Made by a program: the position numbers and the translations under genes. From a virus, in IMG/VR virus record IMGVR_UViG_3300023172_002613, positions 1-38,117 of that record: a stretch of 38,117 nucleotides of DNA. One strand, given 5' to 3'. This document shows, in pieces, positions 2,365-38,117 of this stretch. Under the pieces are notes generated by a model. It saw only the letters and a list, made by a program, of their open reading frames with translations, was not told the origin of the DNA and ran no database searches. How positions within the stretch are numbered: the stretch's first letter is position 1; the number at the start of each line of letters is the position of its first letter.

Positions 2365-3111
2365 TTAGTTGCTTGTCCTTGCAGGTAATACATACTCATA
2401 CAAACCAATACCTGAATCAATTGCAATTTTCATTGCACCTTGTTCTGCAAAAGATATTGATGCTTGTGAAGTATCACTTAATTTCAAAATACTCAGTGTT
2501 TGTGCTAAAGGCCAACTCCATCCTCTTTTGATTTCTGTAGTTACTCCTTTGCTAATTGGTATTTCTACCCTGTCATTTGATCCATCACCTATATAAAATT
2601 TCAATGTGTCACCATCAGTTTTTGCAACAAATGTTGGCTGAACACTGCTCATCACTCCAGCAAAATAGCTCAAATCTTTTAAATTTTGTTGTGTAGGTTG
2701 AATTGTTAAATCCCAATTTACACCTTTGAACTTAACAGTCTTAAGTTTTTCTTCAATTAACTGTGATACCATAAATCTATAATTTGCTGTGTATCCATTA
2801 CCTGATGAAAATTTTAATTCTTCTGGCACTTGTTCGCCGTTTCTTTCACTTGTAACAACTTCAATGTTTGCTGTCTTATCAGCATATCCTTCAAAGTTTA
2901 AATATCCTGCTAACACTGGCAGTTTACCTAAACCCATTGTGCCTTTAAATTCACTTACAGGATTATGTAATTTTCCTTTAAGAACAACTGTTCTATCATC
3001 ATCCATTGCTTCAATTTCAGTTGCAGTACCATCGCCGCCATTTACTTTAACTGATTGAATAAAACCTAATGAATGAGTGTGTTTGACTATGTCTAAGAGT
3101 ACATCCCTCAT
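2365..3111 (-). CDS. 45: Sliding clamp (T4 gp45-like)
   Basis: 248 aa, close to T4 gp45 (228 aa). Recognised by overall sequence character of T4-type clamps: an N-terminal helix (RDVLLDIVKHTHSLGF), repeated beta-rich modules, GLGKLPVLAGYLNF, and the C-terminal strand ending YVLPARTSN. It would form the trimeric ring that tethers gp43 and, in T4, activates late transcription. It directly follows the polymerase gene and has its own sigma-70-like promoter, so clamp can be made in excess of polymerase. Its likely clients here include gp43 and the DpdA-like protein, through C-terminal peptides. Confidence 0.88.
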   Translation of the reverse strand: MRDVLLDIVKHTHSLGFIQSVKVNGGDGTATEIEAMDDDRTVVLKGKLHNPVSEFKGTMGLGKLPVLAGYLNFEGYADKTANIEVVTSERNGEQVPEELKFSSGNGYTANYRFMVSQLIEEKLKTVKFKGVNWDLTIQPTQQNLKDLSYFAGVMSSVQPTFVAKTDGDTLKFYIGDGSNDRVEIPISKGVTTEIKRGWSWPLAQTLSILKLSDTSQASISFAEQGAMKIAIDSGIGLYEYVLPARTSN

Positions 3112-3176: not shown

Positions 3177-5891
3177 TTATCCAATTTCAAATATGGAATC
3201 AAAATTATTAACATGTTGCGTTTCTTTTAATTCCCAACCCAATACTCCAATTAAGTTTTTAATCTTCTGATCAATAATGGTTTTTTCCATTTCTTCGTGA
3301 TCAAATGGCAACTCCTTAAACCATCTTGGTAGATTCAGTTCATCAATTGGGTAAGCAATTGATGTGTAATTCATTGGATTGGGTTTGAGTTTACACACAA
3401 TAACTTTTTGTCCATCCATAATAGGTAAACTGTATCTATCTCTGTAGGCTTTTCTAAGATCATTCCAATTTAAACTGGCTCTAACATGTCCTGGCATAAT
3501 TGGTTTTTTAATTGCATTAGTATTGTCCAAATTTGCCATACTTGCTGTTTGATTATTATATGCAGTAACAATTCCCAAATACTTGGTCAAATTGTTTACT
3601 CGTTTAGGTGTTCCTTTTTCCCAACCGTCTCTTTTTCCAAATTCATTTTTAAAATCAGCAATCATATCAAAACAATCTTGTTTTGTTTTACCAATTAGTA
3701 CCATTGTTAATAGTTCTTCAAGAAATCTCTGTACAAATTCTGGAGTATCTGATCTTTTTAGATCAACACCCATTGCTTTTATTTTACCGGGCTTACCATC
3801 TATATCTTGTCTGTTGCCTTCTAAGTCATAAATTAATGCCGCATATCTTTTCTTTGTGATATACAATCCTGACTCAGCAACAATTTCTCTACCTGCTTGG
3901 ATAATCTTACCTGCTTCTGTTGAAACATTAAATGAGTTAGTCATAAAACTTGGAAAAGAATTATTTACTTCATTACCAATTTGATCATACAATGATATTA
4001 TAGATTCTTTGGTCCATGGCACAATGCCTGCTTCAACATCTTGCTTAACTGATGGATATGCACTAAAATAAACTGAATCAGTGTCACCATATATAATTGA
4101 CTCTCCAGTGTGATTATAATCATTGCAGATTATTTGGTTTGTTTGTGATGCCATGTGCTTGGTAATTGTTCTACCAGACAATGTTACTGATTGACCAATA
4201 CGAGTATCAAAAAATCTACAGCCTGGATTTAGAATAGCACCATACAAACTGTTCAAGTTAATTTTTTTAACAAGTTGTCGTTTATCCCAAAACTCTCTTT
4301 GCTTTTGGTTTTCAGCTTCACGCATTTTTCTTTGCATAACTTTTCTTTCAGAATACCAACTTTCTAACAGTCCAGGCACAACTGCTTTGACATCAGTTCT
4401 AAAAATAGTGCCATTTGAACTCAAACACCAATCTTGTCCTGATTCAAAAATAATCTTATACCATTCTGCACCACTTTTTGAATCTGAGAATCCATCTTCA
4501 AAATCGCAAACAATTTCTACACCAATATCTTTTTCAATAACTGCCTTGTATTCTAGTGTACCAAACAAACCTTCCCAGGCGTCTGCGGCTGACTTGCCTT
4601 CTTTCATTTTGTTGTCAATATACTTTTTAGTGCTTTCTAATCTTAATTGTCCTACAATAGTTTCCGGACCCATATTTAATGCACGAATCACACTTGGATA
4701 CAGTGAGTTAATATCTAAACTGCCAATCCAATTATGTAATCCTTTTTTAGGAAATGCTACATAGGCTCCAACAGCAGGTGTTGTATCAACATTATCACCT
4801 TTCTTTCTGTCTGGAATAACAAATCCTCTTTTATGTGATTCATTGATAATTGCTTGTTCTGTAACTGCCACAGCACCCATTGTAGTTTGTAGTAGCACTG
4901 TGTTAGCATGAGCCAATTCATTTGCTAAATCAATAAATTTTAATTTGTCATCAAGTTTAGCCAACAATGCCACGTCTTGTCTTGAGTATGCAATAAACTT
5001 TTCAAAGTCATTGTTATACAACTGATCAAGTGTGCCATCATATGGAACTTTTTTTTCACCAATTTCATAATCACCAATTGCATCAAGTCTATATGAATGC
5101 ATTTCATGATATGTGTATTTTCTGTACAGTTCTAGATAATCTAAATGCACACGACCAATCAAGTCGTATGTTTCTTGCTCGTTACCATATTTGATGTATT
5201 TTCTTTTTCTTGGATATTTGTCCCATAAACAATATCTTGACAAATCAGCTCTGCTGAGAATCAATTGTGTCCTGTTAATAATGTAAGGAATATCAAATCC
5301 TTCTGAGTTCCATCCACTCAATATATCAGCGTCATCAATAAGTTTTAAAAACATATCAAGAAGTTCTTTTTCATCATGACACAACACAGTGTTGTCATAC
5401 TTAACTGAGATTGCTTCTGCTATTTCTTGATCTAATTTCTCAGGTTTCAAACACAAAGTGATCAATCGTTGATCTTCAGGTAACCAATTCAAATAGAGTG
5501 TTATGGCTGTGATTTTTTCATGTGGATCATGTGCAGGTGCAAAACCTCTATCTTTGTTAAAGTCTACCTCAATATCAAAAAAGCACACATGAGGAACAGG
5601 AGAATCAATTCCCAAATAGTTTTCTTCCAAACATCTAAAAATTGGGTTTATATCAGATTCATGCAGTTTTTGATGACTATACAGTTTTCTTTCTCTATCA
5701 AATTCTTTAATATGCTTTGTTGAAAATTTTGATACTGGTCTACCATATATTGATCTAAATTTTCCTTTTGGATCTGGATAGTAAAAAATATACTTTGTTG
5801 GATACTGACGATATTCTCTTTTGCCTTTTATCCTTTCAACGACATTAATTCTGTCTTTGTCTCTTTCCAAAAATGCATCAATATAACTCAT
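3177..5891 (-). CDS. 43: Family B DNA polymerase (T4 gp43-like)
   Basis: 904 aa, about the length of T4 gp43. Exonuclease motifs: FDIEVD (105-110), GWNSEGFD (193-200) and YSRQD (302-306). Polymerase motifs: DINSLYPS (motif A, 393-400), KINLNSLYG (motif B, 543-551) and YGDTDS (motif C, 601-606). All catalytic acids are present, so proofreading and synthesis should both work. The last ten residues, NNFDSIFEIG, resemble the C-terminal clamp-binding peptide of T4-type polymerases and are almost identical to the C-terminus of the DpdA-like protein at 25635-27107. The gene has its own sigma-70-like promoter and is followed by the clamp gene. Confidence 0.96.
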   Translation of the reverse strand: MSYIDAFLERDKDRINVVERIKGKREYRQYPTKYIFYYPDPKGKFRSIYGRPVSKFSTKHIKEFDRERKLYSHQKLHESDINPIFRCLEENYLGIDSPVPHVCFFDIEVDFNKDRGFAPAHDPHEKITAITLYLNWLPEDQRLITLCLKPEKLDQEIAEAISVKYDNTVLCHDEKELLDMFLKLIDDADILSGWNSEGFDIPYIINRTQLILSRADLSRYCLWDKYPRKRKYIKYGNEQETYDLIGRVHLDYLELYRKYTYHEMHSYRLDAIGDYEIGEKKVPYDGTLDQLYNNDFEKFIAYSRQDVALLAKLDDKLKFIDLANELAHANTVLLQTTMGAVAVTEQAIINESHKRGFVIPDRKKGDNVDTTPAVGAYVAFPKKGLHNWIGSLDINSLYPSVIRALNMGPETIVGQLRLESTKKYIDNKMKEGKSAADAWEGLFGTLEYKAVIEKDIGVEIVCDFEDGFSDSKSGAEWYKIIFESGQDWCLSSNGTIFRTDVKAVVPGLLESWYSERKVMQRKMREAENQKQREFWDKRQLVKKINLNSLYGAILNPGCRFFDTRIGQSVTLSGRTITKHMASQTNQIICNDYNHTGESIIYGDTDSVYFSAYPSVKQDVEAGIVPWTKESIISLYDQIGNEVNNSFPSFMTNSFNVSTEAGKIIQAGREIVAESGLYITKKRYAALIYDLEGNRQDIDGKPGKIKAMGVDLKRSDTPEFVQRFLEELLTMVLIGKTKQDCFDMIADFKNEFGKRDGWEKGTPKRVNNLTKYLGIVTAYNNQTASMANLDNTNAIKKPIMPGHVRASLNWNDLRKAYRDRYSLPIMDGQKVIVCKLKPNPMNYTSIAYPIDELNLPRWFKELPFDHEEMEKTIIDQKIKNLIGVLGWELKETQHVNNFDSIFEIG

Positions 5892-13136: not shown

Positions 13137-14210
13137 TTATCTCCCAAATGTTGTATCTTCAGGTGCTGGTCTTTCACCCAAAGGAATGTTGTAATAAAAT
13201 ATTTTTTCGTTACGATATATTCCAATTTTTATAATATCGCCTGGATCATAATCCCATAATGCTTCTATAAGTTCAATCTGTGTTGAAATTTTAGTATCAT
13301 TTACAGAAACAATAAAGTCACCTTCTAGTAACCCTATTTCTTTTGCTGGCTGACCATCAACTAACGATGAAATATAAATTATTGTGTCAATACCGTTGTC
13401 AAGCATTTTTTGATATAGTTCTTCATCTTCTAAGCCACCCATTGCTATACCAATTGAAGGTCTTTGATGTATGCCTCTGTCAATCAATCTTGTTACAACC
13501 CTGTCAACAAGTTTTGCAGGAATACTGTAACCATACCCAATATAAAATTTTGTAGGTGAAAATATTAGAACATTAACTCCAACTACTTCTCCGTCTTCGT
13601 TAAGCAAAGGACCACCACTGTTGCCTGGATTAATCACTGTGTCGGTTTGTATATAGTTAACAAAACTGTCAGCCGGATTAGGTCTATGAGTTGCACTCAC
13701 AACTCCGCTAGTCAATGACCATACCATTGATAATCCATGACCATATGCATAAACATCATTGCCAAGTTCTACAGGCTGTTTTGCAAATTCTAAAATTTCG
13801 TGAGGCTGATTTGTGTTTACTTTTAATACTGCAATATCAATACTTTTGTCATAACCAACAACTGTTACATTCTTTATTGCAAAAGGATAATGAGGCATCC
13901 ATATTTGAATATTATCCATATTACGAATAACATGATAATTAGTCACAATGTGTTTGTCATCAATCCAAAATCCTGTGCCCATGCCTGATAAATTTCTTTC
14001 TAGTTCTTCTGTTTTTGGAGGATTTTCTGGATTAAGAAATTTTTCAAACTTTTCTGTAGACCCTTGATCTGGTTCTACAAGATCTTCGCTACTGGCATTG
14101 TATACTAATACAATTCCTTTAGATATTTTTTCCCAATCAAGATTGTTCTCATGTGCATTGACATTTATTGGTAATACTATTAAAAATAAAATTAAAAAAA
14201 CTCTTATCAT
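13137..14210 (-). CDS. HtrA/DegP-like periplasmic serine protease with one PDZ domain
   Basis: 357 aa. A signal peptide (MIRVFLILFLIVLPINVNA) directs it to the periplasm. Trypsin-like domain with H93 (VTNYHVI), D125 (SIDIAVLK) and S198 (GNSGGPL), all in family contexts, then a single PDZ domain (about 255-345, with GLLEGDFIVSVNDTKI). DegS also has one PDZ but an N-terminal anchor; DegP and DegQ have two. An insert after the signal peptide (about 40-75) is unlike E. coli DegP. Start and stop of neighbours overlap (TAATG with the upstream 71-aa gene). A role in host envelope stress or lysis timing is an inference. Confidence 0.88.
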   Translation of the reverse strand: MIRVFLILFLIVLPINVNAHENNLDWEKISKGIVLVYNASSEDLVEPDQGSTEKFEKFLNPENPPKTEELERNLSGMGTGFWIDDKHIVTNYHVIRNMDNIQIWMPHYPFAIKNVTVVGYDKSIDIAVLKVNTNQPHEILEFAKQPVELGNDVYAYGHGLSMVWSLTSGVVSATHRPNPADSFVNYIQTDTVINPGNSGGPLLNEDGEVVGVNVLIFSPTKFYIGYGYSIPAKLVDRVVTRLIDRGIHQRPSIGIAMGGLEDEELYQKMLDNGIDTIIYISSLVDGQPAKEIGLLEGDFIVSVNDTKISTQIELIEALWDYDPGDIIKIGIYRNEKIFYYNIPLGERPAPEDTTFGR

Positions 14211-14425
14211 TAAAACGACCCACCATCAAATAAAGATTCTCTGGGTTTTTGAATTTCTGCTGTTTCATTTTGCACTGAAGGAAATTTTGCCGACAGTATT
14301 TCAGATATTTCTAATGCTAACAGCACTGCTTTATCAGTGTCAAGACGTATTTCTTTTTGACGCAATGATTTTGCATTTTTTACTATCTTATTAAAATGTT
14401 CTAAATTAGGATAACCCATGTTCAA
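14210..14425 (-). CDS. Small phage protein, 71 aa
   Basis: Not firmly recognised. A helical, charged protein (FNKIVKNAKSLRQKEIRLDT, AVLLALEISEILSAKF) ending RESLFDGGSF. A CATAAATA late motif lies exactly 36 nt upstream of the ATG. The C-terminal SLFD resembles phage clamp-binding tails loosely, but DGGSF does not, so that idea is weak. Confidence 0.68.
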   Translation of the reverse strand: MNMGYPNLEHFNKIVKNAKSLRQKEIRLDTDKAVLLALEISEILSAKFPSVQNETAEIQKPRESLFDGGSF

Positions 14426-16867: not shown

Positions 16868-17740
16868 TTACGTTCCCCAGGCGTTTCCGAAGATATCGAC
16901 GTGTAATCTAGGTGTGTATCTCCAGCCTCGTTCCATTGCGAGTTCGGCCACTCGTTTAGTGTTGAGTTTGTACTCTTCTGATCGTCCGCCGAGTGGCATA
17001 ATGTAGACCGGAACTTCAATACCTTGTTTTGTATACTCTTGTACAGCTCTGGTAACTTCATCCACGTCATCATTATCAGAAACCACAAACTTGAAATACA
17101 TATCACTGTTAGCCACACTGTAATAACTATGAGCAACATTAGGCTTAATAGCATCACTCCAAGACTCGCCTGATACGGAAAGTTTCGGAGAGCAACTAAA
17201 AGTAAATTGTATCCTTGTTTGATTTTCAAGATAATCTCTGAAATCATTGTGTAAAGTCTGTGTTGTATTTGTTTCAAATGTGACATTTTTCAAATCTCTC
17301 ATTCTAGGATGTTCAAATAATTCAATGTAAAGTCTTTGCCATCCCAACAAAGGCTCCCCACCTGTCATAATAAGATGAACGTCTTGACCATTTGACATTG
17401 TCCATTTGCCTTCTGGTGTTAAACTTAACAAATGATCTACAACTTCATCTACTGTTTTATCCATCATGTATTTTTTAAATTCAGGATAGATACTAGCATA
17501 CGTATCACAACCAGTATGCACAATTGGTAAATCTTCAAATTTTTCTACTTTGTCTAATATACCATTGTCTAACAGTTCTTTAACTTCTGTGTTGTATTTT
17601 CCTTTGACTGTGTTTTTTGCTATACCAAAGTTCATACAACGAAAATTACAACCAAAGGTACGTAAAAACACACTTGGTACTCCTACAAATTTACCTTCAC
17701 CTTGCACACTGTAAAATGCTTCACTATATCTTAATTTCAT
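16868..17740 (-). CDS. queE: QueE-like 7-carboxy-7-deazaguanine synthase (radical SAM)
   Basis: 290 aa. The start is typical of QueE: YSEAFYSVQGEGKFVGVPSV, then RTFGCNFRC. The [4Fe-4S] cysteines are C31 and C35, but the third is not two residues later; F38 is there. The usual CDTxYA context appears instead at C78 (HTGCDTYAS), after an insert of about 40 residues, giving CX3CX42C. MTGGEPLL (SAM-binding GGE) and FETN follow. The enzyme converts carboxytetrahydropterin to 7-carboxy-7-deazaguanine. It has its own sigma-70-like promoter and follows the purine-salvage genes. Confidence 0.88.
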   Translation of the reverse strand: MKLRYSEAFYSVQGEGKFVGVPSVFLRTFGCNFRCMNFGIAKNTVKGKYNTEVKELLDNGILDKVEKFEDLPIVHTGCDTYASIYPEFKKYMMDKTVDEVVDHLLSLTPEGKWTMSNGQDVHLIMTGGEPLLGWQRLYIELFEHPRMRDLKNVTFETNTTQTLHNDFRDYLENQTRIQFTFSCSPKLSVSGESWSDAIKPNVAHSYYSVANSDMYFKFVVSDNDDVDEVTRAVQEYTKQGIEVPVYIMPLGGRSEEYKLNTKRVAELAMERGWRYTPRLHVDIFGNAWGT

Positions 17741-17760
17741 TTTTCACCTATTTCTTATAT

Positions 17761-17788
17761 ATTATACATTATTTAGAAAAAATGTCAA
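17761..17788 (-). promoter_or_regulatory. Sigma-70 promoter for queE
   Basis: TTGACA (17783-17788), 16-nt spacer, TATAAT (17761-17766): a consensus match in all twelve positions. An AGGTG ribosome site follows before the ATG at 17740. Confidence 0.8.
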
Positions 17789-17795
17789 CTAAAGA

Positions 17796-18317
17796 TTACT
17801 GTTTTAGATTCTCTAAAATAGAGTTAATAATTGGGCTTTCTACTGCGTCTCGTTTCCACCAATCTTCCCATGGATAAACCAACCAAACATCTTTTTTGTC
17901 CTTGTCAATCGAAGTACCATACCAATCCACTGCAAAATTACTTGGTTTGTTGTAATGTAAACAACAAAACCTAGCATCTAAACCTTTGTAGTTTTGTAAA
18001 ATATCCTGTTTTAGTTTTTTAAAAGTGTCTCCTGTATCACAGATGTCATCAACTATACATATTTTTTCAACTTTTGAAAAGTTTTCAGACTGTGTGTTCC
18101 AACTTGGATGATCTCTTAATGCCGCTTCAATAGGAACAAAGGGTTTTCCTAAAAAATGGCTTAACATAATTCCTGGAACTAAACCACCTCTGCTTAATCC
18201 AACTATTATATCAGGAACAAAATCATCTTTGTTCATTTTTTCTATTATTAAAGTCAGATAAGATGCAACTGTGGCATGATTAATATATTTTTTACTCAAA
18301 GTCACTGTATACCTCAT
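17796..18317 (-). CDS. Gpt-like xanthine-guanine phosphoribosyltransferase
   Basis: 173 aa. Type I PRTase fold: LSRGGLVPG (41-49), identical to the Gpt motif, and the PRPP loop ICIVDDICDTGDT (86-98). KPSNFAVDW then VWLVYPWEDWW matches the purine-contact region of Gpt (KPxxxxVDD, PWD). It would convert guanine, xanthine or hypoxanthine with PRPP to the nucleotide. It overlaps guaC by 26 bp. In this locus it could recapture guanine released by base exchange in DNA, or use purines imported by the permease. Base preference cannot be read with certainty. Confidence 0.82.
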   Translation of the reverse strand: MRYTVTLSKKYINHATVASYLTLIIEKMNKDDFVPDIIVGLSRGGLVPGIMLSHFLGKPFVPIEAALRDHPSWNTQSENFSKVEKICIVDDICDTGDTFKKLKQDILQNYKGLDARFCCLHYNKPSNFAVDWYGTSIDKDKKDVWLVYPWEDWWKRDAVESPIINSILENLKQ

Positions 18318-19407
18318 TTACTTGTTTATTAACTTGAACAAACGTTGCACATTTAGGCATGTCCTTTAATCGCCTTGCACCAATATAGGTACAACTGCTA
18401 CGCACACCTCCTAAAATATCTTGCACTGTTGATTCAATTTTACCTTTGTAAGGAATTAGCACTTCTCTTCCTTCAGAAGATCTGTACTCTTTCATTCCTC
18501 CAAAATGTTTGTTGTTGGCCGCTTTTGAACTCATACCATAGAATTGAACAAACTGCTTTTCTTGATAATGAGGTAAGTAGTTGCCATTTTCTAAACGTGT
18601 TGCTTCACCATTAGCAAAATGTTTAGTAATTACTTTTCCGCCGCCTTCATCATGGCCAGCAAACATGCCTCCTAGCATGACAAAATCTGAACCAGATGCA
18701 AATGCTTTTGATACATCTCCAGGAACAACACAACCACCATCTGCAATGACCATGCCTCCAACACCGTGTGCCGCATCGGCACACTCAATCATTCCTGACA
18801 GTTGAGGAACTCCAATACCAGTTTTTAATCTAGTAGTACAAACTGATCCTGGTCCTATACCGCATTTTACAATATCAGCACCTTTTAATATCAGTTCTTC
18901 TGTTGCTCCTCCTGTAATAACATTACCAGCAATGATAGTTTTGTCAGGATACATATCTCTAACTTGACTAACAAAGTCAATAAACCTTTGATGATATCCG
19001 TTAGCAACATCAATTGTAATAAAATTAATATCTGGCCAACGTCTTAAAATTTCTTGCATGTTAGCAAAATCTTGTGCCTCATCATCTTTAATTTTACTTG
19101 TTCCAGTACATACACTTACATATTTTAATTTTAATCCATTGCCAACAGCACTTGCCCAATCATCAACTGAATAATGTTTGTTCATAACTGTTAAAATTCT
19201 GTGTTTCTGTAAAACTTTGGCTACTTCAAATGTGCCAACGCCGTCCATGTTGGCGGCCATAATAGGTATGCACTTGAGTGATTTTTTACTGTGAAGAAAA
19301 GTAAACTCTCTTTCCATAACAACATCACTTCTTGATGTTAATACTGATCTTTTGGGTTCTAATAAAACGTCTCTGTAGTCTAATTTAATATCTGGTTTAA
19401 TTCTCAT
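18292..19407 (-). CDS. guaC: GMP reductase
   Basis: 371 aa (GuaC about 347). IMPDH/GMPR barrel without CBS domains. [20 protein letters not shown] at the N-terminus, [12 protein letters not shown], and [11 protein letters not shown] with catalytic C190 are GuaC-like rather than GuaB-like. [37 protein letters not shown] and YRSSEGREV all follow. It deaminates GMP to IMP with NADPH. It lies between the permease and the Gpt-like gene, so guanine salvaged as GMP can be moved towards adenine nucleotides. Confidence 0.93.
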
Positions 19408-19428
19408 TTTTATAACCTTATAAGAAAC

Positions 19429-19452
19429 TTGTAGGGGGAATTCCCCCTACAA
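19429..19452. repeat. Perfect 24-bp GC-rich palindrome
   Basis: TTGTAGGGGG and CCCCCTACAA flank a central AATT with no mismatch. It stands out in AT-rich DNA. It lies between the permease stop and the GMP reductase ATG. As RNA it gives a 10-bp stem with a 4-nt loop. No strong U-run follows on either strand, so it may be an attenuator, a processing site or a protein-binding operator. Confidence 0.65.
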
Positions 19453-19467
19453 TAAAACATAGTCTTA

Positions 19468-20760
19468 TTATACTGCAATGAAGTAAATTAAACTTACTAG
19501 TGCAATAGCAAGACTGCCTCCGTTTAATTCCGCATGTTTACCACTTGCGGCTTTGATAACCACATAGGCTATGAAACCTAATGCAATACCATAAGCAATA
19601 CTAAATGTCAAAGGCATAATTACAGCCGCCAACACAGCCGGAGCATATTCGCTTACGTCATCCCAATCAATATCTTTGAGATTTCTCAAAAAGTATGTTG
19701 CAATGAATATCAATGCAGGTGCAGTTGCAAATGCTGGAATACTCTGTGCCAAAGGAGCAAAGAATAAACACAATGCAAATAATATTGCAACTGTGACAGA
19801 CGTTAATCCTGTTTTTCCACCTTCTTTGATACCAGCACCTGATTCAATATAAGATGTTGTGTTTGAAGTTCCTGCTAATGCACCCACTGATGTAGCAACA
19901 GAATCTGATAATAAAGCTCTATCAATTCCTTCAACTTCACCGTTTTTGTTTACTTTACCTGTAAGGTTAGCCACAGAAGTCAAAGTACCTGCTGTGTCCA
20001 TAAAGTCAACAAATAAGAATGCAAATGCAGTTCCAATAAATCCTGCTGTTGCAATCAAACTAAAGTCTAAACTAAATGCATGAGCCGGACTTGGTATTGC
20101 ACCTGCCACACCATTTAGATCAGATATTCCAAATACCCAAGCAATAATACTCACTGCCAAGATACCAATTATGATTGCACCTGGTACTTTTCTTTTGTCA
20201 AGAATTGCCATCACAGCAAAACCTAAACCTGCAAGTAACACTGGCCACGATGAAATATCACCTAAGCCAACTAATGTTGCTGGATTGTCTACCACAATAC
20301 CTGCATTTTTAAAACCAATGATAGCAAGGAATAAACCTATACCTGCACCAACACCTAATTTCATTGAACGCGGTATTGAATTGATAATATATTTTCTTGC
20401 TGGTGTTACACTCAAACCAATAAACACCAAACCTGCAATGAATACTGCCGCTAGTGCCTGTTGAAAAGTATATCCCATACCAAAGATTACACCAAATGTA
20501 AAGAACGCATTAAGTCCCATACCTGGTGCTAGAGCCACAGGCCAATTTGCCCATAATCCCATAATTAATGTACCTACCACTGCGGCAATAATTGTTGCTG
20601 TAAACACAGCACCAAAAGCCATTCCTGTACCTTCTGTTGAAAGTATTGCAGGATTGACCACAGTAATATAGGCCATTGTTAAAAATGTAGCCAAACCTGC
20701 CATTACTTCAGTTTTGACTGTTGTACCGGCTTTAGACAAGCCGAATAGTTTTTCTAACAT
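19468..20760 (-). CDS. AzgA/NCS2-type purine (guanine/hypoxanthine/xanthine) permease
   Basis: 430 aa, the normal AzgA-family length, with about 12-14 hydrophobic segments. Family marks: MAYITVVNPAILS near residue 30, WPVALAPGMGLNAFF (about 72-87), FVDFMDTAGTL in the middle and the GTSNTTSYIESGAG segment. It would import guanine, hypoxanthine or related purines by proton symport across the inner membrane. A very strong AGGAGG ribosome site precedes the ATG, suggesting high translation. A complete solute transporter is uncommon in phage genomes. Its neighbours FolE, GuaC and Gpt point to a purine supply role. Confidence 0.92.
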   Translation of the reverse strand: MLEKLFGLSKAGTTVKTEVMAGLATFLTMAYITVVNPAILSTEGTGMAFGAVFTATIIAAVVGTLIMGLWANWPVALAPGMGLNAFFTFGVIFGMGYTFQQALAAVFIAGLVFIGLSVTPARKYIINSIPRSMKLGVGAGIGLFLAIIGFKNAGIVVDNPATLVGLGDISSWPVLLAGLGFAVMAILDKRKVPGAIIIGILAVSIIAWVFGISDLNGVAGAIPSPAHAFSLDFSLIATAGFIGTAFAFLFVDFMDTAGTLTSVANLTGKVNKNGEVEGIDRALLSDSVATSVGALAGTSNTTSYIESGAGIKEGGKTGLTSVTVAILFALCLFFAPLAQSIPAFATAPALIFIATYFLRNLKDIDWDDVSEYAPAVLAAVIMPLTFSIAYGIALGFIAYVVIKAASGKHAELNGGSLAIALVSLIYFIAV

Positions 20761-20779
20761 AGTTTTCCTCCTATTAGAT

Positions 20780-21460
20780 TTAGTTGCTGTGCCCTTTCAT
20801 AGACAAGCAAATTTTATAAAATTCATCTCGTGTTGCTGGATCATCTTTAAATGCTCCCAACATGATTGCAGTTGTCATATCTGACTCATGCTCTCTTACA
20901 CCTCTGTGTGTCATACAGTGATGTTCTGCTTTCACTACCACAGCAACGTTTTTAGTATGAGCATACTCTTGCAATTCTTCTGCAATTTGTGTAGTCATCT
21001 CTTCCTGTATCTGTGGTCGTTCCGCAATGTGATGAATAATTCTGTTGAATTTACTTAAACCAATAACTTCACCATTTGGAATAATACCCACCCATGCTTT
21101 ACCTACAATGTTTTGAAAGTGATGAGCACAGGTTGATTTGATTGATATTGGTCCTGATGTGTACATACTTTTGTAACCCATGTTGGGAAAACTTGTAACC
21201 TTTGGCATTGGTCTGTATCTTCCACCAAACACTTCTTTGACCCACATTTTTGCCACACGTCTTGCTGTGTCTTTTGTGTTGTGATCGTTGTCAGTGTCAA
21301 TTACTAGTGTTTGTAACACATCATAAAACTTATTTTCTACTTCTTGTTGAAGAAGATCAATTTCACCTTCTTTGATATACTCGCTGATATTGTCATTGCA
21401 ATGATATCTGGCCTTTGCTTCTTCAAGTCTTTGTTTGATTTGTTTGCTTATTTCTGTCAT
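20780..21460 (-). CDS. folE: GTP cyclohydrolase I
   Basis: 226 aa (E. coli FolE 222). Zinc ligands: C111 and H114 in STCAHHF, and C182 in EHHCMTHRG. IIPNGEVIGLSKFNRI and ERPQIQEEM (guanine-binding Glu) match the family closely. The residue after the first zinc Cys is Ala in place of the usual Glu (CEHH to CAHH). It opens GTP to dihydroneopterin triphosphate, the first step to 7-deazaguanines. GGAG ribosome site; 19 bp before the permease. Confidence 0.94.
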   Translation of the reverse strand: MTEISKQIKQRLEEAKARYHCNDNISEYIKEGEIDLLQQEVENKFYDVLQTLVIDTDNDHNTKDTARRVAKMWVKEVFGGRYRPMPKVTSFPNMGYKSMYTSGPISIKSTCAHHFQNIVGKAWVGIIPNGEVIGLSKFNRIIHHIAERPQIQEEMTTQIAEELQEYAHTKNVAVVVKAEHHCMTHRGVREHESDMTTAIMLGAFKDDPATRDEFYKICLSMKGHSN

Positions 21461-25634: not shown

Positions 25635-27107
25635 TTATTCAATGTCAAATATTGAATCAAAATTAGACACTGTTTCTTGTACTACTTTCTTTTCTTTTTG
25701 TACCAGAGCTGGCACTGATTCAACTAGACTGTCAAATGTGGTTGTTTTAGGTGCTCCTGAAAATTTTGCTTTGCTTAATCCGTTTAACAATGAACTGTGT
25801 TTTTCAATTAATTCAAAAGGTTTTTCAGACTGGAATACTTCTTTAGTAAGATCCACAAACTCCAAAACATTTTCTGGAATACTTTTAACATCTTTAGAAT
25901 CTGTTCTACGATTGGCTTCTTGCACTGCTTCAATCTGTTGATACACATTATGAGCCATCAACAACACATAACTCAAACTGTCCCAACTTGTTTTTGATTC
26001 AAAATCTTCACCTCTACAACAGATATCACCTTCCATGTAACAATCCATTACTGGTGAGTTGTTTACATAAGTTTCATATTCACCTGGAATAATATCAGCA
26101 TACTTTCTATCAAAATTGCCTGCATATTTTTTGTTGTCTTTGGCTTTGTCCATTGTAAATCCAAAACGTGGATTCTTTCTCATCATATCAAATTCATTAA
26201 CTGTGTAAACAAGTCCTCTTGCTACACTGACAAATGCTGATGCTGAATCAAATGACACTTCTATGTTTGGATTGATTTTAACAAGTTCTCTTTTGATTGC
26301 TGTCAACATCACTGCTGGCTCCAGTGCTGACGTACCTAAGAAATGAATCCAATCTTTGCCATTAAACCAACCACCATCTCTCATTTTGATCATTCTATAC
26401 AAGATCAGTTTCCACCATCTCATGTGTTCACCGCCCATAGCCCAACCTTCAAATGCTCTGTCGCCATACACTTTTGGATCACTAAATGGTGCCATTGTGT
26501 CAAACCATTCGTCTGCACTTGCTATGTCATTGCCTTGAATCACATTTAAAAACTTTGTAGCACCCGGAACTCTGTTGTTAACAAACCATTCGTTGTTGTA
26601 GGCTGTGTATGCCATACAATCTTTCACAGTGTTAACACCAATACCCAAGTTAACTGAAAAACTTGGTATATCCAAACACATACTCCAATCAGCAGTGTGT
26701 TCTAACCATCTAAGAATCTGCATTCTTATTTCATCGTTTTTGTGTCCTGGTGTAAAAAAATTATCCCAATCAAATTTAAGAATACCTTTTGCTACCTGAA
26801 ATCCTCCACTGTCACCCAGTATCACAGTTTTGTCTCTGGGTCTGTCTTGCACAAATGCTTCTTGTACCTTTGACTTTTCAATATCTAATTTGGCATGTCC
26901 TGCCGAATACAAACTCCATTTGTAGTTGAACATTCCTTTGTCATCATACAAATATTTCAAACTGTCTAAACCTTTAGGCAAACCTTTTGGAACTCGGTCT
27001 CCCCATTTTTCTTCTGCATTTTTACTCAACAAGTCTGCATAGATGAAACTGATTGCTGGTAAGAATACTGCATAGTCTTTGTTAGATTCTGTTAAATTTA
27101 TACTCAC
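25635..27107 (-). CDS. dpdA: DpdA-like DNA 7-deazaguanine transglycosylase with clamp-binding tail
   Basis: 490 aa, GTG start with a strong GGAG site. TGT-superfamily marks in order: ILGDSGGFQ (97-104, substrate-binding Asp), CLDIPSFS (144-151), NVIQGN (188-193), GWAMGGE (221-227), and VSFDSASAF (284-292, likely nucleophile D287). A Cys cluster follows (C356, C363, C364) with an HN in LMAHNVY, the zinc region, altered from CxCxxC. In the DpdA family this fold exchanges guanine in DNA for a 7-deazaguanine base. The last ten residues, SNFDSIFDIE, nearly equal the C-terminus of the phage DNA polymerase after a polar linker, which suggests binding to the gp45 clamp. Confidence 0.8.
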   Translation of the reverse strand: MSINLTESNKDYAVFLPAISFIYADLLSKNAEEKWGDRVPKGLPKGLDSLKYLYDDKGMFNYKWSLYSAGHAKLDIEKSKVQEAFVQDRPRDKTVILGDSGGFQVAKGILKFDWDNFFTPGHKNDEIRMQILRWLEHTADWSMCLDIPSFSVNLGIGVNTVKDCMAYTAYNNEWFVNNRVPGATKFLNVIQGNDIASADEWFDTMAPFSDPKVYGDRAFEGWAMGGEHMRWWKLILYRMIKMRDGGWFNGKDWIHFLGTSALEPAVMLTAIKRELVKINPNIEVSFDSASAFVSVARGLVYTVNEFDMMRKNPRFGFTMDKAKDNKKYAGNFDRKYADIIPGEYETYVNNSPVMDCYMEGDICCRGEDFESKTSWDSLSYVLLMAHNVYQQIEAVQEANRRTDSKDVKSIPENVLEFVDLTKEVFQSEKPFELIEKHSSLLNGLSKAKFSGAPKTTTFDSLVESVPALVQKEKKVVQETVSNFDSIFDIE

Positions 27108-27295
27108 TGTTTTTCTCCTGCCCAGTCTATTTCACCTTTTTCAATTGCTTTAAATGTTTCATGGTCACGATCATCAAGAATAATTTCTTGTTGTAACCCA
27201 GCAATAAGTCTTTCAACATCATTTTTGTTTATTGGCTTTTTATTTGTTCCTTTTAACTTTTTCCAAAACATTGTTCTTGATAATCTTTTTTTCAC
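27104..27295 (-). CDS. Hypothetical small protein, 63 aa
   Basis: GTG start overlapping the gp44 stop (GTGA); its own stop overlaps the DpdA-like GTG in the same way. A basic N-terminal half (MKKRLSRTMFWKKLKGTNKK) and an acidic C-terminal half (LDDRDHETFKAIEKGEIDW). It sits where T4 has gene 62, the small clamp-loader subunit, but it is far shorter than gp62 (187 aa in T4) and has no visible similarity. Function unknown. Confidence 0.6.
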   Translation of the reverse strand: MKKRLSRTMFWKKLKGTNKKPINKNDVERLIAGLQQEIILDDRDHETFKAIEKGEIDWAGEKQ

Positions 27296-28221
27296 TTTTT
27301 ATTTCTAATTCTTTCAAGTTCAACCATTGTGGCCGCTAAATTGATTTCAGGGTCAACAACTATAGAATGATTTACTAGACCATTTCTAATTGATAATAAT
27401 GCTTTACCTTTTGATAAATCATCTTCACCAAACCATTCAAGATTTTCATATAATTTTCTATAAACTTTTTCATACTGTTCCGGATCAGCATTGTTGATTA
27501 TAAACTCTCTTGCACTTTTAATATCTCCATTTTGGAACATGGCCACATAAGTCACTTCAACTTCACCTTCTTGTGTGTCACCACTTTGAGGCACAGTTAA
27601 TTCACCTGTCTGTGAATTCATTTGACATGTATTAATACATTTTCTTAAATCTGGGTAAGTTGCTTTGACATAAGTTTGTAATACTTCAACTCCAAACTTA
27701 ATTTGTTCTTGTGTTAATATTTCACCAACTCTCACTGTGAACATTGTTTCATCTAATTTGAGAATTTTAAAACCTTGACATCTAGAATGTATTGCAGGAA
27801 TAATTCTACGTTCATAATTACAAGTTAATAAAAATCTACAAGTTGATGCATACTGCTCCATTACACCACGCAATGCCGCTTGACCATTTGGTGATATGTA
27901 ATCTGCCTCATCAAGTATAATGTATTTGAAATCACCAAAAGGCATTGTTTGTGAAAAGTTTGTAATCTTATCTCGTATAACATCTACAGAGTTTTCACTT
28001 GATGCATTAATTTGCAATACATCACCCCAGTCAACTTCTAGTTCATGTAATAATAGTTTTGCTAAAGTAGTTTTTCCTGTTCCCGGTGATCCGCTAAAAA
28101 GTAAATGTGGTATTGCTTTTGATTCAAGCCAAGACATAACTTGACTTTTTTGTGCTTCATCTCTAAAAACGTAATCAGTTACTTTTTTAGGTCTATACTT
28201 TTCTACCCATAATTCTTTCAT
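27292..28221 (-). CDS. 44: Clamp loader large subunit (T4 gp44-like, RFC family)
   Basis: 309 aa (T4 gp44 319). N-terminal WVEKYRPK, Walker A GSPGTGKT (44-51), Walker B IILDEAD (101-107), sensor 1 TCNYERRI and the arginine-finger SRC motif (146-148) in HSRCQ. The C-terminal collar domain follows. It loads the gp45 clamp onto primer-template DNA using ATP. The partner gp62 is not evident in the window. It overlaps the DUF2061 gene (ATGA). Confidence 0.94.
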   Translation of the reverse strand: MKELWVEKYRPKKVTDYVFRDEAQKSQVMSWLESKAIPHLLFSGSPGTGKTTLAKLLLHELEVDWGDVLQINASSENSVDVIRDKITNFSQTMPFGDFKYIILDEADYISPNGQAALRGVMEQYASTCRFLLTCNYERRIIPAIHSRCQGFKILKLDETMFTVRVGEILTQEQIKFGVEVLQTYVKATYPDLRKCINTCQMNSQTGELTVPQSGDTQEGEVEVTYVAMFQNGDIKSAREFIINNADPEQYEKVYRKLYENLEWFGEDDLSKGKALLSIRNGLVNHSIVVDPEINLAATMVELERIRNKK

Positions 28222-29575: not shown

Positions 29576-29583
29576 TATTTATC
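29576..29583 (-). promoter_or_regulatory. T4-type late promoter motif GATAAATA
   Basis: It lies 36 nt upstream of the 118-aa protein's ATG and overlaps the stop codon of the DnaE-like fragment. It likely also drives the GroES-like gene. Confidence 0.55.
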
Positions 29584-30085
29584 GCAAAAATTCTTCAATG
29601 TCAAGCTCAAATTTAATTGAATCTACTTTATGTACTCCAATTAAGTATAAAATATAACTAGAAACACTGGATCCTCTACCTACACCCCATACTATGTTAT
29701 TTTTTCTCATTGTGTCTATCAAATAAACCATAAAACGCAACACATCTAACATACCACGTTCTTCAAACATCTTGTACTCATGCATGACTCGAGTTGTTTG
29801 AATTTCATTGCTGGTTTTGTTTAACAAATACTGTTTGATATCAAGGTCTTTGTATTCTTGTGTCATGTACCAAGTTTGTTGATTAACTGTATCAAACTCT
29901 TCTTGACTTATATCAACATAATTTTTTAATTCAGATAATGATAATCTATTTGTTGTAACTGAATTGTTGTACTGTTCTACAACTGATTTTTCAAATGATG
30001 CATCTTCAATTGGTTTGTTTTGATACAACAGTTCCAATCCATCATGCTCATCTAAAATACATCTTTTTAAATTATCAAGTCTCAT
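29579..30085 (-). CDS. DnaE-like (Pol III alpha) fragment protein, 168 aa
   Basis: The C-terminal 40 residues contain VWGVGRGSSVSSYILYLIGV (residues 132-151) and the FELDIEEFLR end, matching the bacterial DnaE palm segment VGPGRGSAAGSLVAYxLGIT...LxFERFLN. In DnaE the catalytic PDxDxD follows directly; this protein ends just before it, at a stop codon overlapping a late promoter. The first 125 residues are helical and unassigned. It cannot be a polymerase alone. It might bind DNA, mimic or block the host replicase, or be a fixed remnant. The frame is intact, so it is called a gene, not a pseudogene. Confidence 0.65.
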   Translation of the reverse strand: MRLDNLKRCILDEHDGLELLYQNKPIEDASFEKSVVEQYNNSVTTNRLSLSELKNYVDISQEEFDTVNQQTWYMTQEYKDLDIKQYLLNKTSNEIQTTRVMHEYKMFEERGMLDVLRFMVYLIDTMRKNNIVWGVGRGSSVSSYILYLIGVHKVDSIKFELDIEEFLR

Positions 30086-31907: not shown

Positions 31908-32141
31908 TTATGATTTTGGATTTTTTTGGTTTTCAATGACTTTTGGAAAAATAGTTGAAACAGCATCTTTATAAACTAATTGAGTATGGCTGTCTTTTTC
32001 TAAAAGAAAGCAAGATTCATCTTGCTTTGTAATCTTACCAATTAGTTTTATACCATTTTTCAAAAATGCAGTAATTTGTGTTTCTGTGGCCATTACTGCA
32101 TGGTAAAATTCTTGTTCTACATTATTTGTATTTGTTGTCAT
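31908..32141 (-). CDS. hfq: Phage-encoded Hfq-like RNA chaperone
   Basis: 77 aa from ATG 32141; a TTG at 32171 could add ten residues but is less likely. The Sm1 region ITAFLKNGIKLIGKITKQDE corresponds to Hfq VSIYLVNGIKLQGQIESFD, and Sm2 VYKDAVSTIFP corresponds to VYKHAISTVVP. The N-terminal Gln of the proximal RNA site is kept (EQEFYHAV). The His of the KHA motif (H57 in E. coli Hfq) is Asp here, so U-rich RNA binding at the proximal face may be changed. An AAAGG site and a TATAAATA late promoter 36 nt upstream decide the start and suggest late expression. Confidence 0.82.
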   Translation of the reverse strand: MTTNTNNVEQEFYHAVMATETQITAFLKNGIKLIGKITKQDESCFLLEKDSHTQLVYKDAVSTIFPKVIENQKNPKS

Positions 32142-32177
32142 TTTTTTATATACCTTTGTTAACAATATCAATGATAT

Positions 32178-33662: not shown

Positions 33663-34268
33663 CTAAAACAAATTCATATCAAAATTTAAAACGGTAGCAA
33701 CCAAGTGTACTCTATCTTCTTCTCCACCATTAAATGCATTATGATATTTTGTGTTGTCAGTTACCCAAACATGACCATCTGCTGGCATGTGATGAACTAC
33801 TTTGTCAACACACATTCTTGCTCCATAGTTTGTAACTATGGGTATATGTATTCTAGGCTCTGGATCTCTATGCCAACTTAATGTGGTTCTTGGTAATTTC
33901 CATAACAATCTAATTCTACCAATTTGATATTTCTTACACAAAGTATCATATACTTCTTTAAAGTATGTGTCTTGAAATAATTCAACAAATTGAGAATACT
34001 TTGTTTCATCAATAGATTCTTCACGTTGTACTTCTTTATAAGTACTGTCTGGCTTGGTCCAAAATAATCCTCTAACATTACCTCCTGTGATTGAATTTGA
34101 ATCACCTGGTATTTGTGTTAAACAGATTGCATTGATATCTCTTTCACCTAGAGGTGATTGTCTTGCCACTCTTGAATCTACTTCTGCTAATGCTGATTGT
34201 AATTTTTTTATGTCAAAATATATATCTGGGTCTTGATAAAAACCTTTTGGCCAAACTCTAGACATCAA
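33663..34268 (-). CDS. 2-oxoglutarate/Fe(II) oxygenase (Asp/Asn beta-hydroxylase-like)
   Basis: 201 aa. The facial triad is visible: H133 and D135 in SWHRDPEPRIHIPI, and H176 in DNTKYHNAFN, followed by R186 (EEDRVHLV) that binds 2-oxoglutarate. This order and the IHIPI strand resemble the aspartyl/asparaginyl beta-hydroxylase fold. Substrate unknown. It overlaps the aldehyde dehydrogenase gene by 11 bp, which suggests a shared pathway with lysine or aminoadipate. The C-terminus NFDMNLF faintly recalls the FDSIF clamp tails, but this is too weak to claim. Confidence 0.82.
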   Translation of the reverse strand: MMSRVWPKGFYQDPDIYFDIKKLQSALAEVDSRVARQSPLGERDINAICLTQIPGDSNSITGGNVRGLFWTKPDSTYKEVQREESIDETKYSQFVELFQDTYFKEVYDTLCKKYQIGRIRLLWKLPRTTLSWHRDPEPRIHIPIVTNYGARMCVDKVVHHMPADGHVWVTDNTKYHNAFNGGEEDRVHLVATVLNFDMNLF

Positions 34269-35628
34269 ACTTAATACCTTGTGCTAACGGCAATGACTTT
34301 CCATAGTTAATTGTGACTGTGCTTCTACGCATATATTGTTTCCAAGCATCTGATCCAGACTCACGACCACCACCTGTGTCTTTTTCACCACCAAAGGCTC
34401 CGCCAATCTCAGCACCACTTGGGCCAATGTTGACATTAACAATACCACAATCAGAACCAGTTGCTGATGTAAACGTTTCTGCTTCTTGCACACTGTCAGT
34501 GAATATACAAGAACTTAAACCTTGTGGCACACTGTTTTGTATTTCAATTGCTTCTTCTAAAGTGTTATATTTCATAACATACAATATTGGTGCAAAAGTC
34601 TCAGTTTTTATAATATCACATTGTTCTGTGGCTTCAACTATTGCTGGGTTCACAAATGAATCACCTAACGCAGGTAATGGTTCTCCGCCATACACTGTGT
34701 AATTTTTTTCTTTACACTCTTTTAAAACTGTCTGCATAGTTTTCAAAGACTCTTTGTTTATCAAAGGACCTACTAAATTCTTTTTATCTAAAGGATCACC
34801 AATTGGTAAACTTGCATATGATTTTTTTAATCGTTCTAACAGTTCATCATATTTAGACCAATGCACAATTAATCTTCTTAATGTAGTACATCTTTGACCA
34901 CATGTACCTACAGCACTGAACACAATAGCTCTAACTGCCAAATCTAAATTTGCATGTTCAGACACTATCATTGCATTGTTACCACCAAGTTCATATAAAC
35001 CTTTGCCCATTCTTTCTGCTACCAACGGTGCTAAAGTTTTACCCATTTGTGTTGAACCAGTAGCACTTAACAAATTAATTCTTTTATCTTGTGCCATCCA
35101 TTTTGCTTCTACGTCATGACCTGATATGATCTGCATTAAATCTTTTTGATACTGTTCATCACAAACACTGTCCCAAATTGATTTACACAGCACAGAAACT
35201 TTCATTGTTTTTGGAGAAGGTTTCCATACAACACTGTTACCACAGACAATTGCCAAACAAAGATTCCAGCCCCATACTGCTACTGGAAAATTAAAAGCAG
35301 TGATCACACCAACTACTCCAATTGGGTTCCATACTTCTTGCAGTTTGTGTTCGTTTCTTTCTGATGGCATTGTTTTACCGTACAGTTGTCTTGATAGACC
35401 AACTGCAAAATCACACATGTCTATGACTTCTTGTGCTTCACCAACACCTTCAATAAAAATTTTTCTACTTTCAAGTGTGATGCCTTTTCCTACTTCGTCA
35501 AGTCTTTCTCTTAATTTATTACCAAATTTTCTTATTAGTTCTCCACGACTTGGAGCAGGAACTGTTTTCCATTGTTTTTGAGATGCAATTGATTTTTCAA
35601 TTGTGCTTGTATAATCTTTTACGTTCAC
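34258..35628 (-). CDS. Alpha-aminoadipic semialdehyde dehydrogenase-like (ALDH7 family)
   Basis: 456 aa (ALDH7 about 500; the N-terminus is shorter). GVVGVITAFNFPVAVWGWN (104-122), catalytic-site E213 in LYELGGNNAMIV, and catalytic C247 in AVGTCGQRCTTLRRL, which is the ALDH7 form (VGTAGQRCTT). EIGGAFGGEKDTGGGRESGSD near the end is also ALDH7-like. It would oxidise aminoadipate semialdehyde to 2-aminoadipate with NAD. Its ATG overlaps the stop of the lysine/saccharopine dehydrogenase-like gene, a pairing known for bacterial lysine catabolism. Confidence 0.86.
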   Translation of the reverse strand: MNVKDYTSTIEKSIASQKQWKTVPAPSRGELIRKFGNKLRERLDEVGKGITLESRKIFIEGVGEAQEVIDMCDFAVGLSRQLYGKTMPSERNEHKLQEVWNPIGVVGVITAFNFPVAVWGWNLCLAIVCGNSVVWKPSPKTMKVSVLCKSIWDSVCDEQYQKDLMQIISGHDVEAKWMAQDKRINLLSATGSTQMGKTLAPLVAERMGKGLYELGGNNAMIVSEHANLDLAVRAIVFSAVGTCGQRCTTLRRLIVHWSKYDELLERLKKSYASLPIGDPLDKKNLVGPLINKESLKTMQTVLKECKEKNYTVYGGEPLPALGDSFVNPAIVEATEQCDIIKTETFAPILYVMKYNTLEEAIEIQNSVPQGLSSCIFTDSVQEAETFTSATGSDCGIVNVNIGPSGAEIGGAFGGEKDTGGGRESGSDAWKQYMRRSTVTINYGKSLPLAQGIKFDV

Positions 35629-37223: not shown

Positions 37224-38117
37224 TTATTTTGTAGTTGCTACGTATACTCCATTCCAAGTTTTAATTTTTTGTTGCTCCATATTAATTATTCTTTGAAGCA
37301 TTACATTATAGTACTTATCCAATATTTGAGGATATTGAGTTGTAATTTGTTCAATTTGTTGTCTAGCATTTATCCATTGTGCATTTCTATAAAACTTTAA
37401 AAAATCATTGTGTTTATTAAAAAATTCACTATCAACACTTTCAAATAATACTGTGTATATAGTTGCTGGTTCAGTTTTACCTTTAACTGCTATCATATCT
37501 AACTCAATAAATTTATATGAATCTGATACTGATGTTTCTCCCACTAACAATGTTAATCCATATTCTTTACTCTGTCCTTCTAAACGTGCCGCTAAATTAA
37601 CTGCATCGCCAAGAACAGAATAGTCAAATCTTTGGTTTGAACCCATATTACCAACAACAACACTACCAGTATTAATACCAATACCAATTTTAATTGGTAA
37701 GAGCCCTTCACTTTCCAATTCCTTATTAAGTTTTGATAATGCTACAAACATTTCATTGGCAGTTTTAATTGCTAGTTGTTTTTGTTGAGGAACGTCTAAC
37801 GGTGCGTTCCAAAATGCCATCAAAGCATCACCAATATATTTGTCAACAGTTCCGTCATTTTTCATAACAATGTCTGTCATAGGAGTCATATAACGATTAA
37901 TAAGTTTTGTTAGTCCTTGTGGATCTGTTTTGTACTGTTCACTAATTGGAGTAAATCCTCTTATGTCACTAAACAATATTGTTAATTCTCTTGTGTCGCC
38001 ACCAAGTTTTAGTAACTCTGGATTCTTTTGTAATTTTTTAACCATAGCAGGTGCCAAATAATGTTCAAATTGTTTTTTGATTTGTTGTTTGAGTTGAAAC
38101 TCTTTTACAAATCTATT
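37224..38117 (-). CDS. Class III adenylyl cyclase (5' end beyond the window)
   Basis: 297 codons are visible and the frame is open to the right edge, so the N-terminal part is missing. Catalytic domain: ILFSDIRGFTPIS (metal-binding Asp), KYIGDALMAFW (second Asp, with the adenine-specifying Lys in VDKYIGD), and RFDYSVLGDAVNLAARLEG (adenine-contacting Asp, then the Asn and Arg of the transition-state pair). The key residues fit ATP rather than GTP. The sequence before it (FEHYLAPAMVKKL ... LGGDTREL) is the usual linker after membrane CHASE2-type or HAMP sensors. It would raise cAMP in the infected cell. A TTG at 38057 is not the likely start because the domain linker begins earlier. Confidence 0.92.
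   Translation of the reverse strand, partial: NRFVKEFQLKQQIKKQFEHYLAPAMVKKLQKNPELLKLGGDTRELTILFSDIRGFTPISEQYKTDPQGLTKLINRYMTPMTDIVMKNDGTVDKYIGDALMAFWNAPLDVPQQKQLAIKTANEMFVALSKLNKELESEGLLPIKIGIGINTGSVVVGNMGSNQRFDYSVLGDAVNLAARLEGQSKEYGLTLLVGETSVSDSYKFIELDMIAVKGKTEPATIYTVLFESVDSEFFNKHNDFLKFYRNAQWINARQQIEQITTQYPQILDKYYNVMLQRIINMEQQKIKTWNGVYVATTK

Follow-up and report, generated by a model that had tools for sequence, protein, structure and literature searches.

A polymerase-type, putatively clamp-binding tail on a DpdA2-like transglycosylase suggests recruitment to newly made DNA in giant phages

The locus analysed here raises the question of why an enzyme predicted to exchange bases in DNA should end in the same short peptide as the DNA polymerase encoded in the same stretch of DNA. 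The window, by which we mean the whole 38,117-nt stretch (IMG/VR record IMGVR_UViG_3300023172_002613, positions 1 to 38,117), encodes on its minus strand a 490-residue DpdA-like protein (25635-27107, GTG start) and a 904-residue family-B DNA polymerase (3177-5891; PF00136 5.6e-39, PF03104, phrog_262 8.8e-198). Translation of both genes showed that the first ends in VSNFDSIFDIE and the second in VNNFDSIFEIG, with NFDSIF[DE]I matching exactly between them, and so confirmed the common end peptide claimed in a preliminary description of this DNA. The peptide of the DpdA-like protein, SNFDSIFDIE (residues 481-490; 25638..25667, minus strand), is a candidate sliding-clamp-binding motif conserved in homologues, and that of the polymerase, NNFDSIFEIG (3180..3209, minus strand), follows a tail pattern conserved in the related polymerases among the matches listed. 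None of the remaining ORFs in the window ends in NFDSIF[DE]I. Among the 180 ORFs of G001, a 124-kb record from a 99%-identical relative, a loose hydrophobic-LF pattern lies near the C-terminus of eight, and only two of these, the polymerase and the DpdA-like protein, have this peptide as their end. Two other window proteins were considered as clamp clients, an Asp/Arg-hydroxylase-like protein (33663-34268, ending LNFDMNLF) and a 71-residue ORF (14210-14425, ending SLFDGGSF); their ends vary in relatives, and we therefore do not put them forward.

Taken together, our analyses suggest that a polymerase-type clamp-binding tail recruits the DpdA2-like transglycosylase to clamp-loaded, newly made DNA, a reading to which we give a probability of roughly 0.78. 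By this mechanism a DpdA2-like DNA guanine transglycosylase would carry an added disordered tail with a polymerase-type clamp-binding short linear motif, and the tail would dock in the same hydrophobic pocket of the PCNA/gp45-like phage clamp that the polymerase tail would also occupy. Docking would enrich the enzyme on phage DNA that is freshly replicated and clamp-loaded, where it would exchange guanine for a 7-deazaguanine supplied by FolE, QueD, QueE and later enzymes of phage or host. Recruitment to DNA-loaded clamps is in our view what best explains the presence of the same peptide on a TGT-type enzyme, given the coupling of its gene to that of the clamp. We infer from this clamp binding, the identity of the pocket and action at or behind the fork, and base exchange may be coupled to the fork itself and not simply to whichever clamps are loaded on DNA. 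Since the bases that DpdA exchanges are those of DNA already synthesised, riding on clamps that stay behind the fork would bring the enzyme to new phage DNA.

Searches based on sequence failed for both the enzyme and the proposed clamp, and predicted folds were therefore needed to identify them. The DpdA-like protein received no useful identification from Pfam, PHROGs, NCBIfam, PADLOC or phmmer and hmmsearch against the PDB, and the Pfam TGT model PF01702 has no significant match to its family (best E 0.27, in one of 40 members). The DpdA2 of nt-1 is likewise without a Pfam match, and so a match to PF01702 is not defining for the DpdA2 branch. An AlphaFold2 model of the enzyme built from 40 homologues (mean pLDDT 86) was confident over residues 1-447, the transglycosylase domain, and its top three Foldseek matches in the PDB were tRNA-guanine transglycosylases (E 2.1e-5 to 5.5e-5, probability 1.00, TM by target about 0.5). 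Among viral models it matched the nt-1 protein R9TGF0, a DpdA2 (E 2.3e-9), and also the Motura transglycosylase. Moreover, hhalign aligned the enzyme profile with nt-1 DpdA2 (E 2.2e-4) across the DSGG[FL]Q, D-IP, H[MF]LG and [IV]S[FY]DS motifs. The catalytic motifs of the window enzyme are DSGGFQ (99-104), LDIP (145-148) and D287, the last of which we take as the likely nucleophile; in 48 homologues D99-S-G-G-x-Q104, D146 and D287 are invariant and Q191 is 96% conserved. With regard to the Cys3-His zinc site of TGTs, C363 (92%) and H386 are conserved, but the CxCxxC pattern is absent from the window protein.

DpdA2 was defined by Hutinet et al. from nt-1, whose DNA contains dPreQ0 (PMC6884629), and we propose that the window enzyme probably swaps guanine for 7-deazaguanine in phage DNA, with both the DNA substrate and the identity of the base as putative assignments. 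An enzyme acting on tRNA instead, with the clamp tail, if real, serving another role, would be in keeping with the fold, which among solved structures is nearest to tRNA transglycosylases. However, phage TGT-like DpdA and DpdA2 proteins have been linked to deazaguanines in DNA (PMC6884629), and a DNA-clamp tail together with adjacency to the clamp gene makes little sense for a tRNA enzyme; of the explanations considered here we judge this the least probable.

The proposed common partner is the 248-residue product of 2365..3111 (minus strand; phrog_12062), for which sequence searches gave no match to any named clamp. Its AlphaFold2 model (pLDDT 89.6) matched PCNA in Foldseek (E 2.5e-11, probability 1.00, TM about 0.66 for this single-chain model), which bears out the earlier naming of this gene as a gp45-type sliding clamp. 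The gene lies close to dpdA in most of the lineage: of 202 loci with both genes, some of which may share one contig and so are not all independent, 176 have dpdA on the same strand, beginning no more than 1 kb past the end of the clamp gene, and more than 80 of these dpdA genes start within 26 bases of the clamp stop, many with -4/-1 overlaps. In PA5oct the order is polymerase, clamp, one small gene and the DpdA-like gene, and in Vibrio phage 2.275.O it is polymerase, clamp, two small genes, the DpdA-like gene and a gene for a 370-residue protein, followed by QueF, a transporter, QueC, an amidotransferase-like protein and FolE. The window clade has dpdA behind a clamp-loader gene instead, where the large subunit (gp44-like, 27292..28221, minus strand; phrog_168 7.2e-78) lies upstream of dpdA in the same gene run and is joined to it through a 63-residue ORF that matched no family (27104..27295, minus strand) that overlaps each neighbor by four bases.

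This arrangement might suggest that the tails share a partner other than the clamp, namely the clamp loader, a single-strand binding protein or RNA polymerase, and in T4 the loader and the clients do use the same face of the clamp (PMC2988020). We consider this quite unlikely, given that dpdA adjoins the clamp gene across the lineage and that gp45 is the established partner of the C-termini of T4-type polymerases (PMC2988020, PMC7892883). The T4 gp43, gp55 and gp33 tails all bind gp45 and are freely interchangeable, and the linker bearing the gp55 motif is highly tolerant (PMC2988020, PMC7892883). Elsewhere among the replication genes, a 168-residue protein (29579-30085) has a partial match to DNA polymerase III alpha (PF07733 4.9e-12), which is consistent with the split minimal PolIII alpha known from group 2.2 jumbo phages (PMC7824862), and in PA5oct the polymerase gene is annotated as two pieces flanking a Hef-like homing-endonuclease gene (L170:5605-10831).

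The DpdA-like family is present in 42 of 44 records carrying related polymerases or clamps, and the tail conservation that the preliminary description expected in close homologues from clamp-encoding phages was found. The three closest homologues end in SNFDSIFDIE, SNFENLFE and TNFGNLFE, and in a set of 101 dereplicated, complete homologues F-x-x-[LIM]-F occurs in the tails of 71, where shuffling of the tails gave 3.1 on average and never more than 9; a looser pattern occurs in 82, against a mean of 20.5 and a maximum of 34. The consensus in these tails is [NTS]-x-F-[NDGS]-x-L-F-[DE]. Among the matches listed, all 45 related polymerases retain F-x-x-[LI]-F as the C-terminal pattern, with ends such as TFDDLFEL, TFNSLFEIS and VFESLFESA. 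Because most of the homologues and the related polymerases have a peptide of this kind, we regard the shared peptide as a lineage-wide feature and not a coincidence. About 30% of the homologues are without the strict pattern; many of these retain an LF[DE]-like core (ISNSLFTE, IADTLFYE, NNELFDW, NNNDLFGW), and a few (L351, L294) retain little of the motif. In 18 homologues, that of the window included, the end of the motif lies 1-3 residues from the C-terminus, and in 53 it lies 23-39 residues away, with an acidic stretch after it; an internal gp55 motif is still functional in T4 fusions (PMC2988020). The last 30 residues of the homologues L103, L007 and L170 illustrate the acidic end after an internal motif, for example NPDDDELRALEEE or NDEKLTELEQ. 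One homologue (L158, G044 122001-123404) has an internal TGA stop.

The preliminary description also asked whether the two tails co-vary, and they do so weakly. Over 51 dereplicated DpdA/polymerase pairs the variable positions gave 1.65 versus 1.45 identities (p 0.016, phylogeny uncontrolled), which is a small excess of similarity and a weak signal, and strict co-evolution of both tails across the lineage was set aside. A few pairs are nevertheless striking, among them the polymerase and DpdA of the window (FDSIFEI/FDSIFDI), the identical FGNLFE/FGNLFE of L013/L004, and Vibrio phage 2.275.O, whose DpdA is 30% identical and in which both proteins carry a different peptide (polymerase NNTDLFDW, DpdA NNNDLFGW).

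FG[DNST]LFEI is also present about 40 residues before the C-terminus of large probable virion proteins (G031 158343-162293, G036 110774-114196, G027 117994-121395 and W02 290902-294765). Since these have the same letters, the pattern on its own is unspecific, and we rejected its use as a finder of clients.

How the motif sits in the enzyme and how it has changed among relatives both bear on its nature. Residues 448-490 are the sole low-confidence stretch of the enzyme model (pLDDT about 35), comprising a predicted disordered linker (residues 448-480; 25668..25766, minus strand) and the terminal peptide, which matches the expectation for a tethered short motif, and tail length is divergent among homologues. 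Where relatives have FNxLF, the aligned columns of the window protein hold FDSLV (residues 458-462; 25722..25736, minus strand), which we read as a decayed copy; L003 and L004 have TTTFDSIV and TTTFDQLV at this old position, and the window clade combines FDSLV there with the new C-terminal copy SNFDSIFDIE. Similarly, L098 has QLEAHFEG at the old position and a new C-terminal SNFNALFD, while its sisters L100 and L101 end in AQFNALFE at the old position. To judge from these alignments, the motif would have decayed and been replaced in two lineages, the window clade and that of L098, and the tail motif behaves as a short linear motif and not as part of the fold.

Against this, the motif might have a conserved structural role within the enzyme, as would a helix that packs against the domain it belongs to or lies in a dimer interface, and its likeness to the polymerase tail might be coincidental. 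F-x-x-L-F is indeed short and hydrophobic, and the same letters recur in an unrelated virion protein. However, the tail is predicted to be disordered and varies in length, the motif stands at two different places and has apparently moved at least two times, and the F-x-x-L-F tail is absent from nt-1 and KVP40 DpdA2, as is the motif from two distant TGT-like proteins of other jumbo phages, whose ends are lysine-rich. On balance we hold a structural role to be unlikely, and prefer a clamp-binding tail.

A supply of the modified base would also be called for by the proposed mechanism, and we surveyed 27 virus records, 26 with the DpdA-like family plus nt-1, for 7-deazaguanine synthesis genes. FolE and QueE were each found in 23/27 and QueD in 20/27; many records are fragments, so absences among them mean little. 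QueC was clear only in nt-1 and in Vibrio phage 2.275.O, the sole DpdA-like relative examined with a strong match, and the last steps may thus use host enzymes or yield a different base. The window itself encodes folE (20780..21460, minus strand; PF01227 3.4e-49), GTP cyclohydrolase I, the first step of the pathway, and a queE-like 7-carboxy-7-deazaguanine synthase (16868..17740, minus strand; TIGR03963 7.7e-13, under the curated cut-off), whose counterpart in G001 is the place that PA5oct QueE matches (E 6e-31). Between these two genes in the 16868-21460 cluster lie a xanthine/guanine phosphoribosyltransferase-like gene (17796-18317), GMP reductase (18292-19407) and a purine-type permease (19468-20760), and the cluster could serve to salvage the guanine freed by base exchange.

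Additional observations come from G027, a 322-kb relative with 385 ORFs, in which a strict-pattern scan found three proteins ending in the motif: the polymerase (TFDDLFEL), DpdA (SFHNLFE) and a 421-residue protein (TQTQFDRLFE; L186:14644-15909 = G027 174644-175909, minus strand) with a weak match to N6/N4 DNA methylases (PF01555, 2.2e-5, just below the curated cut-off). Its tail is F[DE]RLF[EVT] in 8/8 homologues whose ends were read, among them one with 67% identity. This methylase-like protein is a possible second clamp client, and another likely DNA-modifying enzyme with the tail fits the idea of the clamp as a hub. The broader proposal, that both the transglycosylase and the N6/N4-type methylase of this one sub-lineage acquired the clamp tail of the polymerase, such that nascent DNA would be modified as it leaves the fork, we offer tentatively, at somewhat less than even odds. 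Other genes of the window include an adenylate/guanylate cyclase catalytic domain truncated at the end of the window (37224-38057; 675 residues in the relative G001), an Hfq-like protein (31908-32171; PF17209 8.7e-15) and an aldehyde dehydrogenase (34258-35628) closest to L-piperidine-6-carboxylate dehydrogenase (NF050084 1e-210, just below the cut-off).

These results suggest a tie between the replication machinery and genome modification in a large family of giant phages. If so, this would explain how a base-exchange enzyme, which needs polymerised DNA, locates newly made phage DNA, modification might come early enough for protection from host nucleases, and the DNA or tRNA substrate of uncharacterised phage TGT-like proteins would be partly readable from sequence. 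Our literature search found no paper connecting DpdA or 7-deazaguanine insertion to a sliding clamp. The novelty claimed in the preliminary description nevertheless calls for qualification: the binding of gp45 by T4 alpha-glucosyltransferase, another phage DNA-hypermodification enzyme, was already known (PMC13216743), and since this case and that of Dnmt1 and PCNA precede ours, the principle of clamp-recruited modification is not new.

Among known systems, nt-1 (R9TGF0) and KVP40 DpdA2 share with the window enzyme the fold and the TGT-superfamily motifs (DSGG[FL]Q, D-IP, H[MF]LG and [IV]S[YF]DS), but they end in AEYPDFKS and AEFPAFKEQE, respectively. The tail has its likeness in T4 and RB69, where gp43, gp55 and gp33 have, close to the C-terminus or right at it, a short peptide of hydrophobic and acidic residues borne on a variable linker (PMC2988020), the record of RB69 gp43, the reference clamp-binding tail, ending in KKASLFDMFDF. 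However, those carriers are a polymerase and transcription factors whereas ours exchanges bases, and the motif is internal in most DpdA-like homologues. T4 alpha-glucosyltransferase is, similar to DpdA, a phage DNA-hypermodification enzyme, and it co-purifies with gp45 (Sommer et al. 2004, as cited in PMC13216743), although it transfers sugars and does not exchange bases; its share of glucosylation was found in that 2026 study to be set mostly by expression and not by clamp binding (PMC13216743). Finally, although eukaryotic Dnmt1 is a methyltransferase and the proteins are unrelated, there too a sliding clamp, PCNA, recruits a DNA modification enzyme to new DNA (PMC9690074).
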